Part shown: piece after piece, positions 123 to 4,440 of the stretch
Layout: every line of letters starts with the position of its first letter
Numbering within the stretch: the stretch's first letter is position 1
Assembly: GCA_017539105.1 (NCBI GenBank)
Contig: JAFYHQ010000014.1
Coordinates: 62,001 to 126,000 of the forward strand
Direction: 5' to 3'
DNA from: Erysipelotrichaceae bacterium
Lineage (GTDB): Bacteria > Bacillota_I > Bacilli_A > Erysipelotrichales > Erysipelotrichaceae
DNA length: 64,000 bases
Translations under genes and position numbers: made by a program
The notes under the pieces: generated by a model
The model's database searches: none
The model's input: the letters and a program-made list of their open reading frames with translations, nothing else
Told to the model about the DNA's origin: nothing

Positions 123-172
123 TAAAAAAATCGCACACAGAAGGGCTTAAACTGCCAAAATCTGTGTGCGAT
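123..172 (-). terminator. Rho-independent terminator of the element operon
   Basis: A perfect 12-bp stem (ATCGCACACAGA at 130-141, TCTGTGTGCGAT at 161-172) is followed on the minus strand by a run of seven T. It lies 30 bases after the stop of the gene at 202-678 and closes the left minus-strand operon. Confidence 0.9.
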
Positions 173-201
173 ATTCGTATAGGGTTTTTGGAAACAACCG
201 C

Positions 202-678
202 TTATCTTTTCTTGTTGGAAAACATATCATCAATTATCTTGCCGATAGATTGCCCTAATGCTTTGCCAAAGCGTTCGCCAAGTTTGGTGGCTCAATGTTT
301 CTTATGACTTGCTCTCTTGTGATTTACATTGTAAGAGCCAATTTCGTTGATGCTGTTAAAGATATCATAAGCGCTTTCTTCTATCATTTCGCTAACATCT
401 TCTTCTACTCAACGCACGATATCTGTTTGTATCTCGTTGAGTGCTTGCGTTGATGCTTCAATCAGTGTCTTTTCTAACGCTTGCTTGTTAAATATATAAC
501 GGTCTCGCTTCGGTTCTATTCTCAATGGGTAGCCGAGGTCATCCAATCGGTGAATATAACTGTCTATCAGTTCTTCGCGTGAAGTTATGTATTCGTATTT
601 GATTGTTCCGTTGCCTGATTGCCCCAATTGCTTTTTGAGGTTGTGTTGATGATGTGCCATTTTATCGCTGACGTTCAT
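202..678 (-). CDS. Element protein of unknown function, TGA read as Trp (158 aa)
   Basis: Under the standard code this frame stops at a TGA at 409-411, leaving a short protein. Reading that TGA and a second one (292-294) as Trp extends it to a TAA at 202-204, giving 158 residues followed at once by a strong terminator. The start at 676-678 is chosen because AAGGAG precedes it by nine bases; it overlaps the previous gene by 17 bases. The middle is acidic and helical (WVEEDVSEMIEESAYD). The tail is an amphipathic glycine-rich helix (GERFGKALGQSIGKIIDDMF). I do not recognise the family. Confidence 0.7.
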
Positions 679-886
679 TTCTGTAAAACTCCTTGATATA
701 TACATCTAATTTGTATCGGCTCTCATAGCCAAGTTTTGTGACTCCTGATAGTCAATTATAAAAAGACGTTTCCTTGATGCCGATTGCGGATGCGATATCT
801 TTGTATCTTACATCGCTGCCTCATTTAAGAAACCGGCATTCTCCTCTTAATCTTTCTTGTTCTTCTTTAATAGGTGGTAAGCACAT
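662..886 (-). CDS. Small helix-turn-helix protein, TGA read as Trp (74 aa)
   Basis: This gene is invisible under the standard code because TGA occurs at codons 22 and 45. Read as Trp it gives 74 residues containing YKDIASAIGIKETSFYNWL, a classic helix-turn-helix of phage and plasmid regulators, in which a tryptophan at the Y-N-W-L position is typical. GGAG stands 7 bases before the ATG at 884-886, and it ends in TAA at 662-664. Probably a DNA-binding regulator of the element. The 117 bases upstream hold no start codon and are probably a leader. Confidence 0.75.
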
Positions 887-1003
887 AATTATTTCTCCTT
901 TCTGTGCGGGGGTGAGTTTCAGGACAACACAACAAAGTCGTTGATAATTGCTCGTTGGTGCTCCAAACTGCTTCCCAAAGTATTTTTTATTGATTATGAA
1001 GTA

Positions 1004-1495
1004 TTAGAAGACAAACTCTTCTGCTGGATGAAAAGAGAGGGGCTCAACGTTGTCGTTGAGGCACTCTCCTTTATTTATCTTTGTATTGTTCGTTATATTG
1101 TTTCTATGCTGATTTTCGCACGTCTCTTGTTCGGTTTCCGTATAAGAAGGTGTGCGAATATCGTATAGTTCTTTGGCTGATGGTGTGCGGTTTTCGCACC
1201 CCTGATATATGCTCTTCTGGTGGATGACGTTTTCATCAAAATCTATGAAACCTTTTTCTTTGAGCTCTCGTAGCCCATCGTGAAAGGTTGTTCTTTTGAT
1301 GCCCCATTTGTGTTTGGCATCAGCAGGTGATATGTCCCACAAGATGCCGTCTTTATTCTTCAAAAGATAGCATCACACTTTGAAACCCGAGCCGTTTAAT
1401 ACCGAGCAGGCATAAGCCATTTCTTCTTCGCCATAAATAAGATAGATGCCTGATATCTTCTTATCTATTCTTACTGTTCTTTGATTTTGATACAT
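1004..1495 (-). CDS. Helix-turn-helix protein, replication-initiator-like, TGA read as Trp (163 aa)
   Basis: Starts at ATG 1493-1495 inside the end of the DUF5659 gene and ends at TAA 1004-1006. Codon 41 is TGA (1373-1375). As Trp it gives SGFKVWCYLLKNKDGILWDI, the conserved segment found before a winged helix (AKHKWGIKRTTFHDGLREL, about residues 59-77) in small plasmid and phage initiator or regulator proteins. Two other tryptophans use TGG. The C-terminal third is polar, Asn- and Glu-rich and probably unstructured. Standard-code reading would begin only after the TGA and lose the first helix. Likely a DNA-binding initiator or regulator. Confidence 0.72.
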
Positions 1496-1682
1496 AGCCA
1501 TTGCGTTCAAACCTCACTATCTTATTAACTTCTCTTCTTAATTCTTCACTGTCTTCAAAATAGAAGACGTGAAACTCTGGCTTATTTTTGTTTCTGCCTG
1601 TGCCGATACATTTATAACCTCGGCTTTCAAGTTCTTTCGCCAATCACAAGGCGCATATTGTGTAGTTTGTATTTTGATACAT
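1461..1682 (-). CDS. DUF5659-like protein, TGA read as Trp (73 aa)
   Basis: ATG at 1680-1682 follows AAAGGAG with good spacing. Codon 13 is TGA (1644-1646); as Trp it gives TICALWLAKELESRGYKCIG, matching the DUF5659 pattern of a helix, then Gly-Tyr/Phe, a strand and F-x-F-x-D-S-E-E-L (seen as VFYFEDSEELRREV, about residues 44-57). Family members are small proteins of phages and conjugative elements with no assigned function. It overlaps the next gene by 35 bases, and both begin with the same residues, MYQN. The stop is TAA. Confidence 0.72.
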
Positions 1683-1744: not shown

Positions 1745-1772
1745 ATTATACGCATTAAAGAAAAAAGCCCAA
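1745..1772 (-). promoter_or_regulatory. Probable promoter for the DUF5659/HTH operon
   Basis: On the minus strand TATAAT (1745-1750) lies 16 bases after TTGGGC (1767-1772). The -35 overlaps the terminator of the upstream gene. The leader to the ATG at 1682 is about 55 bases and carries AAAGGAG. Confidence 0.5.
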
Positions 1773-1801
1773 TCAGTATTTCTTTTTTCTACTGGTCGGG
1801 C
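1759..1801 (-). terminator. Rho-independent terminator after the 63-aa gene
   Basis: A 12-bp stem with one mismatch (1767-1778 with 1790-1801, including one G-T pair) is followed on the minus strand by TTTTTT. It separates the 1831-2940 genes from the recoded DUF5659 operon. Confidence 0.75.
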
Positions 1802-1830: not shown

Positions 1831-2022
1831 CTATGCCGTGTATATTGGCTCCTGATGAGGCGCAATCCACATTTGAAAGAGTTTGCCATTAGATAGTTCA
1901 ACGGTGATTGTGTGCTTACAGAACGGTTGCTTGCGTGCTGTTTCCATCAGCAGTTCTTGTGCTTTGAAGATTGCTTCAATATCATTTGATGCTTTTGTTT
2001 TGATAATTGTTCTTGTTTTCAT
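1831..2022 (-). CDS. Small element protein of unknown function (63 aa)
   Basis: A short beta-alpha-beta-like protein with TIIKTKASNDIEAIFKAQEL and a C-terminal VELSNGKLFQMWIAP. It has one TGG tryptophan and ends in TAG. AAAGGA precedes the ATG, and the gap to the upstream gene is 16 bases, so it is probably co-transcribed with the two genes before it and then terminated at 1759-1801. Not recognised. Confidence 0.7.
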   Translation of the reverse strand: MKTRTIIKTKASNDIEAIFKAQELLMETARKQPFCKHTITVELSNGKLFQMWIAPHQEPIYTA

Positions 2023-2038: not shown

Positions 2039-2509
2039 TTAACTTAATTTAGTGGGAAACTTGCCGGCTGATTTCTTGGCTTCAAATACAGGGGCGTTGT
2101 TTGCCAAATCAGCAGTGCGGATGCGTTCAAGAGTATCAAATGGTGATTTGTAATCTGGAACCTCCGAGATGAACCACTCTTTCGCAAACTGATAGCGGTG
2201 TCTGCTGTCAGGAACAACGAGAACCTTGTTATTGAACTCATCAAGTAATTCTTTGCCATTTGGAAGCATTGATAATACGTGTCTCATATAATCGTAAGTC
2301 AAACCTTTTGAACGTCTGGAAGAGGTGATTTTTCTACCGCTTTCTTCACAAATCTCAATCTGTGGGAAATCGTTCTGAACCTGTAAAATCAGTTTGTATT
2401 CTTGTGAGCCGATTGCTTCTGCTCTCTGAGCGAACTTGTGATTTACAATCATCCGATTGTTAGCCCAATCAAGCCGATAACCGAGCCTTACGTTTTCTCT
2501 TACTGCCAT
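2039..2509 (-). CDS. Element protein, paralogue of the upstream gene (156 aa)
   Basis: Unrecognised family. It shares with the 2509-2940 product the pattern L-T-Y-x3-M-x2-x-L-S-M/L-L-P-N, then an acidic or polar segment, then Y-Q-x2-K-x-W-F-I (residues about 70-115). The two genes are probably an old tandem duplication. Its ATG overlaps the upstream TAA by one base (TAATG), which suggests translational coupling. Only TGG tryptophans are used; the stop is TAA. Confidence 0.75.
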   Translation of the reverse strand: MAVRENVRLGYRLDWANNRMIVNHKFAQRAEAIGSQEYKLILQVQNDFPQIEICEESGRKITSSRRSKGLTYDYMRHVLSMLPNGKELLDEFNNKVLVVPDSRHRYQFAKEWFISEVPDYKSPFDTLERIRTADLANNAPVFEAKKSAGKFPTKLS

Positions 2510-2940
2510 TATGCGATAGCCTCACTTTCAACTACTTCATTGCTGTCATATAATCCAGCATCAATATCTTTCTGTAATAAGTTCATATCGTTATCATAAG
2601 CGTTTTCAATGAACCATTTCTTTACGTACTGATAAGGGCTTGAAGTAATTAAGGATAACTTCCTCTGATATTCAAACTGTCCTAATAATACTTCGGCATT
2701 TGGGAGCAGGGAGAGATGATTTTCCATCTTCTTGTAAGTCAGGTGTCTGTTATTGACTTTTCTGTTAGCGTTTTTCTTATTTGTTCTTGAAACCAATCTT
2801 ACGACTTCTGGATTTTCAGCTTTGAACTTTTTCCAGAGATGATACTCGGTTGTGCCGTAAGTTAATGCTTTGTTTAAGAATGCTCTTGAAACGATAGCTT
2901 CTTCCTGATTTAATGCGTTGATTTTGATTGTGTTTGTCAT
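2509..2940 (-). CDS. First gene of the element operon, paralogue of the next gene (143 aa)
   Basis: A basic protein with many Asn and Lys residues in the centre (SRTNKKNANRKVNNRHLTYK), followed by the motif shared with its neighbour (LLPNAEVLL and YQYVKKWFI). GTAGAGG precedes the ATG. It starts the minus-strand operon from the intergenic region it shares with the divergent integrase. Function unknown; the basic centre could bind nucleic acid. Confidence 0.75.
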   Translation of the reverse strand: MTNTIKINALNQEEAIVSRAFLNKALTYGTTEYHLWKKFKAENPEVVRLVSRTNKKNANRKVNNRHLTYKKMENHLSLLPNAEVLLGQFEYQRKLSLITSSPYQYVKKWFIENAYDNDMNLLQKDIDAGLYDSNEVVESEAIA

Positions 2941-3133: not shown

Positions 3134-4231
3134 GTGTCAATTCATAAAGACAAAAAAAGAAATACTTGGTATGTAAAATACAACAACAAAACCAAGAGGG
3201 GCTTTACTTCAAAGAAGGAAGCGCAGAACTATGAAATGTTATTAAAATCAGGAAAAGGGCAACCGCAAACAAAGATACAAGAATACGAGTTCTCATTTAT
3301 TGCTGATGACTTCTTAAAATACAAGAAAAATGATATTGAGTATTCCTCATATTCTCTTTACGAGGGAATTGTGAATAATACCATCAAGCCTTATTTTGAA
3401 AACAAGATAATCAACAGCATCAAAGAACTTGACTGTAAAGGATTTAGGGATGCTGTTTCACTACTGGATTGTTCGGCAAGAAGGAAAAATAAGATACTTC
3501 AACTTTGTAAAAATATCTTTCAGTATGCTACGGATTATTATGAGTTATCTTCTAATCCCTCATTAGTGATGAAACCATTTAATTACAAAATGGAAGAAAA
3601 GATAAGCAGTAAAAAGAAAGAATTGTGCATTTGGAATAACGATGATTTCAACAAGTTTATTAATTGCGTTCTTGATGAAGATTACAAAGCACTGTTTCTT
3701 GTTTTATATCTAACAGGTTTAAGGTTGGGTGAAGCATTGGCGCTGACATACAATGATATTGATGAATACAGTTTATCAATCACCAAATCCCAAACAAAGA
3801 TAACTGAAAATGGTACTTACGAAATTAAAGCACCGAAAAACGTTTCAAGTATCAGGGATGTATCAATCAACAAATCTTTATATTTCTACCTTCTGGCAAG
3901 AAAAAAGGAGGAGATGAATAAACCTGATTTTATGTCCTCTTGGTTTGTATTCGGCGGAAAAGACCCACTACCTCGCACCAGCATTGAACGCGTCAAAAAC
4001 AAAGCAGTCAAAGAAGCCGGTGTGAAGAAGATACGGCTTCACGATTTCAGGCATTCGCACGCTTCAAATCTTATTGGTGAAGGAATGGATATTGTGGCAG
4101 TATCAAAACGATTAGGCCATAGCAATATTGAAATGACATTGAACTGTTATACGCATTTGTTGAAGAAAAACGATGATGATTTGACGGAGTATTTAGAAAA
4201 ATCTTCTCACAACCTTCTCACAAAAAGTTGA
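3134..4231 (+). CDS. int: Tyrosine recombinase / integrase (365 aa)
   Basis: Phage-type site-specific integrase. An N-terminal Arm DNA-binding segment (SIHKDKKRNTWYVKYNNKTK), a SAM-like core-binding domain (about 60-160), then the catalytic domain with the first Arg in TGLRLGEALAL, H-x-x-R in RLHDFRHSHASNLI, a later Gly-His (KRLGHSNIEMT) and Tyr in LNCYTHLLKK. The start is GTG; a four-codon ORF (3118-3132) ends just before it. All three tryptophans are TGG and the frame stops at TGA (4229-4231), unlike the rest of the element. If TGA were Trp it would gain seven residues and end at TAA 4250-4252. It faces the tRNA-Thr 3' end, the likely target. Confidence 0.93.
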   Translation: MSIHKDKKRNTWYVKYNNKTKRGFTSKKEAQNYEMLLKSGKGQPQTKIQEYEFSFIADDFLKYKKNDIEYSSYSLYEGIVNNTIKPYFENKIINSIKELDCKGFRDAVSLLDCSARRKNKILQLCKNIFQYATDYYELSSNPSLVMKPFNYKMEEKISSKKKELCIWNNDDFNKFINCVLDEDYKALFLVLYLTGLRLGEALALTYNDIDEYSLSITKSQTKITENGTYEIKAPKNVSSIRDVSINKSLYFYLLARKKEEMNKPDFMSSWFVFGGKDPLPRTSIERVKNKAVKEAGVKKIRLHDFRHSHASNLIGEGMDIVAVSKRLGHSNIEMTLNCYTHLLKKNDDDLTEYLEKSSHNLLTKS

Positions 4232-4330
4232 ATAATGATGAAAAGTTGTTAAGAATTGTTGATTTGAATTAAACCGTAATGTTTCAAAAAGCCTTATTTT
4301 AAAGCATAATCTTATATTATAAGGTAAAAT

Positions 4331-4364: not shown

Positions 4365-4400
4365 TGGTGCCAACTACAGGAATCGAACCCGTAACCTACT
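4365..4400. other. Candidate attachment site (tRNA-Thr 3' half)
   Basis: The integrase gene points at the 3' end of this tRNA, the classic target of tyrosine integrases. The matching direct repeat should lie left of base 1. This is a prediction from layout; the exact crossover is unknown. Confidence 0.4.
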
Positions 4401-4440
4401 GATTACAAATCAGTTGCTCTACCTATTGCGCTAAGTTGGC
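4365..4440 (-). tRNA. tRNA-Thr (anticodon TGT)
   Basis: A 76-base cloverleaf on the minus strand. Acceptor GCCAACT pairs with AGTTGGC, with A73 and an encoded CCA. The anticodon arm is ACTGA-TTTGTAA-TCAGT (anticodon TGT) and the T loop is GGTTCGATTCC. It reads ACA threonine codons and is co-transcribed with tRNA-Val. Confidence 0.97.

Follow-up and report, generated by a model that had tools for sequence, protein, structure and literature searches.

Putative tryptophan-coding TGA codons are confined to one replication-type operon of a small integrative element in Erysipelotrichaceae

In a small integrative element carried by a standard-code bacterium of the Erysipelotrichaceae, the codon TGA is predicted to be a working tryptophan codon in one four-gene operon, where it behaves like a member of an ordinary two-codon family, and a stop codon elsewhere. 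The two meanings thus appear to coexist, operon by operon, within a single 9-kb element in one standard-code cell, and this arrangement appears to have lasted over long divergence. The window, that is, the whole 64,000-nucleotide stretch of DNA analyzed here, corresponds to C6:62001-126000 of a 2.09-Mb draft genome (G000). Because the 3' end of tRNA-Thr is repeated at C6:57753, the element can be delimited to approximately 8.6 kb (C6:57753-66365); it is cut by the window start, and the window holds its right half only. Both att repeats at a tRNA gene and an integrase are present. From left to right, the element encodes a WYL-type regulator, small genes, a lipoprotein, an HTH gene and a serine recombinase, followed by two more small genes (one HTH), the TGA operon with its four genes, a second operon of three genes (operon 1) and the integrase. 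The left att copy of tRNA-Thr (L007 17753-17830, C6:57753) is interrupted by a 27-nt palindromic insert (ATGATGCC..GGCATCAT), and a low-GC gene of 490 aa, in which zinc-ribbon-like motifs recur, lies just outside the left end (L007 16111-17583, C6:56111-57583). The features of the right half and the two element ends are listed below in window coordinates; G010 denotes the sister element in Solobacterium sp. UBA3303, an Erysipelotrichaceae genome of the same genus as that of the window.

130..174, minus strand: terminator hairpin 3' of the TGA operon, kept in G010
202..660, minus strand: orf205, a 152-aa protein without assigned function, with in-frame TGA at 409-411 (TGG in G010) and 292-294 (TGA in three of the four elements compared, TGG in the fourth)
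662..886, minus strand: small HTH-like protein (orf665; profile search and four-element alignment), with in-frame TGA at 821-823 (shared by all four elements) and 752-754
1004..1501, minus strand: DnaD-like/replication HTH protein (phrog_186, 8.2e-8), with in-frame TGA at 1373-1375 and two further Trp codons that are TGG
1461..1682, minus strand: DUF5659-like protein, encoded by the first TGA-operon gene (PF18903, E 2.9e-4, below the cut-off), with in-frame TGA at 1644-1646 (shared by all three orthologues)
1767..1801, minus strand: terminator-like hairpin with a T-run, separating operon 1 from the TGA operon, kept in G010 in weaker form
1831..2022, minus strand: orf1834, operon 1, TGG only
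2039..2509, minus strand: orf2042, operon 1, paralogue-like to orf2512, TGG only, 92% identical in G010
2509..2940, minus strand: orf2512, operon 1, TGG only
3134..4231, plus strand: tyrosine-recombinase integrase, 365 aa, GTG start at 3134, TGA stop at 4229-4231 (Pfam Phage_integrase 7.7e-24; phrog_1 2.4e-62)
4229..4252, plus strand: seven-residue tail added to the integrase if TGA is Trp, not conserved in the sister element
4365..4440, minus strand: tRNA-Thr (tgt), the integration site and right end of the element, adjoining the integrase
C6:57753, outside the window: partial copy of the tRNA-Thr 3' end, the left end of the element

Gene order and the flanking hairpins suggest that the four TGA genes form one transcript. 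The putative functions of its products come from weak profile matches (DnaD-like, E 8e-8; DUF5659, below the cut-off); PDB profile searches returned nothing meaningful, and an AlphaFold model of the DnaD-like protein, built from two sequences, had a pLDDT of 39.5 and was set aside. HTH genes are present in the element, and the single match behind the replication-type assignment is the DnaD-like one (phrog_186). Among the element proteins scanned against Pfam, PHROGs and NCBIfam, with the left-arm proteins scanned in part, no convincing virion structural or lysis gene was found. Likewise, no terminase, capsid or packaging gene was clearly recognized in the element, whose only terS-like PHROG match is weak (E 0.047).

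The distribution of TGA along the element is sharply partitioned. Four of its 16 genes, namely, the DUF5659-like, DnaD-like, small HTH and orf205 genes (window 202-1682, minus strand), contain in-frame TGA, and the other 12, the integrase included, contain none. TGA terminates three genes (the integrase, HTH2 and the WYL regulator), all of them among these 12, and the integrase and HTH2 are TGA-ended in both sister elements; the operon genes end in TAA or TAG only. Over four related elements, tryptophan is written with 20 TGA and 10 TGG codons in the operon, a count that takes in an unrelated replication-type gene of the G031 element, versus 0 TGA and 58 TGG codons in all other genes. When alignment columns are counted instead of codons, TGA occupies 11 of the 15 Trp columns in the operon and 0 of 47 elsewhere (p ~3e-9), although such p-values overstate independence because the four elements share ancestry. 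The partition between the operon and the other genes greatly exceeds what chance would give. With 4 of 16 genes affected, coding density over the whole element is not clearly higher under code 4.

The integrase was the starting point of this work, and the original prediction described its sequence exactly: all three Trp codons are TGG, and the reading frame ends at TGA 4229-4231 under table 11 (365 aa) or, with seven extra residues, at TAA 4250-4252 under table 4 (372 aa). The sister integrase in G010 is 64% identical, has four TGG and no TGA codons, and is likewise TGA-ended. Since the residues past the integrase TGA differ between the two sister elements (IMMKSC in the window vs KLFLFD in G010), this TGA is a real stop. 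In the three related elements together, of which two carry other integrase types, the integrases contain 17 TGG and 0 TGA codons. The comparison along the element and its relatives reveals neither TGA-Trp within an integrase nor an even element-wide codon mix. Taken alone, the absence of TGA from three codons is weak (chance ~0.04 at the TGA rate of the operon). The integrase is not exceptional but is one among many standard-coded genes, and the special part is the operon. The proposal that the rest of the element departs from the standard code was mistaken, as 12 of 16 genes lack in-frame TGA, three of these end in TGA, and TGA stands for Trp in one operon only. What endures is the idea of a two-code element, in which the integration genes can be read by the standard code while another module needs TGA as Trp; this holds in three relatives as well, but the integrase has no unique place in it.

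By comparing the four elements, the reading of TGA as tryptophan may be evaluated column by column. The G010 element is colinear with that of the window, with in-frame TGA in the same four genes and none elsewhere in the part covered, and the TGA sites are mostly shared. A profile search with orf205 led to two further elements, in G612 (another genus) and in G031, both with other integrases. Column 22 of orf665 is TGA in all four elements, column 18 of the DUF5659-like protein is TGA in all three orthologues, and column 132 of orf205 reads TGA, TGA, TGA and TGG across the four. The DnaD-like gene of G010 has three TGA codons and that of G612 has none; in G031 (L186 14789-15343, G031:C70), a replication-type gene that shares no sequence relationship with the DnaD-like gene occupies the same operon position and contains one in-frame TGA. 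Altogether, three alignment columns exchange TGA and TGG, and the residues found at TGA columns are W, F and Y (often F or Y), with some S, T and Q, and never Cys. In the comparison of the window with G010, dN/dS after the first TGA is 0.19, with dS near 1. The exchanges with TGG or aromatic residues and the purifying selection past the TGAs indicate that TGA works as a Trp codon in the operon, and selection downstream of the TGAs implies that the complete proteins are produced at some stage of the life cycle. As the split is common to related elements in other species, the operon genes are, as judged from these sequences, producible only where TGA is read through. In the window and G010 elements, 13/17 operon Trp codons are TGA, a fraction near the proportion of Lys, Glu and Gln codons that end in A (0.68-0.70). 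Selenocysteine reading was ruled out by the lack of Cys at TGA columns, and a G-to-A bias as the source of the TGAs was ruled out by an A-ending share that is equal inside and outside the operon.

The host machinery was considered as the reader of these codons. No tRNA was recognizable inside the element of the window or its sister (ARAGORN, Rfam), and no UCA anticodon or TGA-reading tRNA was found in the G000 and G010 genomes, which are 88-89% complete. A search of 147 relatives with a suppressor-tRNA pattern (CTTCAAA plus T-loop), which covers one loop type, gave no tRNA-like match by eye among the matches listed. The host of the window encodes RF2 with a CTTTGAC frameshift site and ends 67 of 164 genes (~41%) with TGA in the 150 kb sampled; none of these 67 genes passed a test for a coding-like extension past TGA, and thus TGA seems not to serve as a Trp codon for the host itself. 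The original prediction placed integration before any TGA-reading tRNA is made. With no recognizable tRNA of the element's own, none found that reads TGA in the two hosts and RF2 present, later production of such a tRNA by the element is not the mechanism. The associated suggestion that code choice acts as a switch may hold in an altered form, between two modules, in which case the trigger must come from outside the element and act on the operon. In both genomes, a 27:43 mismatch (U.C in G000 and C.U in G010) shortens the anticodon stem of the chromosomal tRNA-Trp(CCA) to 4 bp, and the same tRNA carries A24, a base assigned by hand from the sequences. In E. coli, overexpressing a 4-bp-stem tRNA-Trp raised UGA readthrough approximately 2.5-fold, and the same source lists G24A as a change that facilitates it (PMC13092985); for wild-type B. 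subtilis, 6% UGA readthrough is quoted in PMC7918605. This evidence is suggestive, not decisive, because the 4-bp form is the only tRNA-Trp in ~6.5% of standard-code genomes (PMC13092985) and both hosts belong to one genus. Two phage-type tRNA arrays, of 7 and ~13 tRNAs with weak scores, lie in G000 beside the full chromosomal set (C6:13679-14222, L005; C17:7553-8651, L067), and the first of them contributes an additional tRNA-Trp(CCA) whose stem has the normal 5 bp.

Based on the results presented above, our preferred reading, to which we assign a probability of approximately 0.5, is an integrative element with one replication-type operon that depends on UGA decoding, the likeliest reader in the hosts at hand being the chromosomal tRNA-Trp(CCA). 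The operon TGAs would be read in competition with RF2 by this tRNA, whose 4-bp anticodon stem and A24 may promote reading through UGA. The integrase, regulators and cargo would be expressible at all times. The replication-type operon would be kept low, and its output would rise only once the balance tips toward Trp-tRNA and away from RF2, or with the arrival of a suppressor. The tRNA-Trp structures are those of two of the four hosts, G000 and G010, and all four elements come from draft genomes. Several TGAs per gene and a frequency at equilibrium suggest, against leaky host reading, efficient decoding whenever the operon is used; a dedicated suppressor fits these two facts better. Such a tRNA could be absent from the assemblies only, given host genomes that are 88-89% complete. 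We rank the host tRNA-Trp first and a helper-borne suppressor second.

A helper-borne suppressor would make the element a code-gated satellite, whose operon stays silent in ordinary cells and gets translated only if a tRNA-Trp(UCA) is supplied by a TGA-recoded phage or other element, the TGAs acting as a helper sensor. This is a genuine possibility with lower odds than the preferred reading. TGA at mutational equilibrium, with up to three codons per gene, points to efficient reading when needed; the genes needed in the uninfected state are all TGG only; and the element has an integrase, regulators and a replication-type gene without a suppressor tRNA. Code-4 gut phages are known in standard hosts, and the sensing of co-resident phages through recoding has been proposed, as far as the accounts in PMC10136315 and PMC10879173 go. 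However, a large-terminase search of 147 relatives found no TGA-recoded prophage (the matches were either open or, in all but a few cases, had mixed stops, and the three regions inspected, in G095, G101 and G004, are standard-coded), no helper was identified, and the element has no clearly recognized terminase, capsid or packaging gene. The notion of a helper-sensing code lock, in which the replication-type operon is written in another code and translated only after a TGA-recoded phage changes it, while the integrase and regulators always work, is tentative and on balance unlikely. A further and improbable reading is that the operon simply relies on a dedicated UGA suppressor tRNA of the host or of another resident element, one that escaped detection because the assemblies lack it or its structure is unusual. 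The incomplete assemblies, the two phage-type arrays of G000 and the two tRNAs that ARAGORN missed in one of them leave room for it, but the two missed tRNAs are Phe and His by eye, no UCA anticodon was found in G000 or G010, and host genes stop at TGA in the presence of RF2 with its frameshift site. Decay of an operon derived from a TGA-recoded phage or plasmid, with the TGAs as leftovers in dead genes, would agree with the small, functionally unassigned genes and with the existence of TGA-recoded phages as described in PMC10879173; it is very improbable in view of the purifying selection past the TGAs, the lack of TAA, TAG or frameshifts within the genes, and TGA sites that are kept across genera at 35-40% identity while Trp-TGA is gained at new positions. 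Chance or an assembly error, conceivable for a single draft genome, is refuted by the same codons in four separate assemblies.

Compared to known systems, the element resembles the TGA-recoded (code 4) gut phages and prophages of Borges et al. 2022, as relayed second-hand in PMC10136315 and PMC10879173, in that TGA stands for Trp in a standard-code host and recoding is concentrated in one functional module. Many of those genomes also lack their own suppressor tRNA, which PMC10136315 gives for only 35% of TGA-recoded genomes. On the other hand, this element is ~9 kb, has no recognized structural or lysis gene, and combines a recoded replication-type operon with a strictly standard remainder. 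PICI-like phage satellites, in the outline given by PMC13376191, span 7-20 kb and have att repeats at a tRNA gene, an integrase, regulators and a replication-type gene but no structural genes; the element is similar in size, att repeats and integrase, and perhaps in its HTH genes and putative replication-type gene, and differs in having no clearly recognized packaging or terminase gene and no known helper. The 27:43 mismatch in both host genomes checked recalls the 4-bp-stem tRNA-Trp(CCA) that decodes UGA in Blastocrithidia and Zinderia (PMC13092985), except that here the host keeps RF2 and TGA stops and sense use is confined to one mobile operon; A24 also places the host tRNA-Trp outside the strict 'Blastocrithidia-like' class.

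Recoded stops that time phage late genes or the lysis-lysogeny decision have already been published or proposed (Borges et al. 2022, as reported in PMC10136315 and PMC10879173). What is new here is module-wise recoding in a small element without recognized virion genes or a suppressor, found across genera and in hosts whose tRNA-Trp is apparently prone to UGA reading. Two questions become testable, namely, by what means TGA is decoded for recoded phages that lack a suppressor tRNA of their own and whether bacteria retaining RF2 make natural use of the 4-bp-anticodon-stem tRNA-Trp. In practice, gene prediction with table 11 will overlook operons of this kind or cut their genes short.

No relatives of the element were found in the IMG/VR viral contigs, phages or plasmids searched, and the more distant integrase relatives in G014 and G010 C98 belong to other elements. 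G009:C234 (L089 11206-12076) contains only a remnant of the same element family near a tRNA-Gly, comprising an integrase end, the end of g61316 and a resolvase start. In addition, a short contig, G612:C72 (L185), contains the end of the G612 operon once more and represents either an assembly variant or a second copy.
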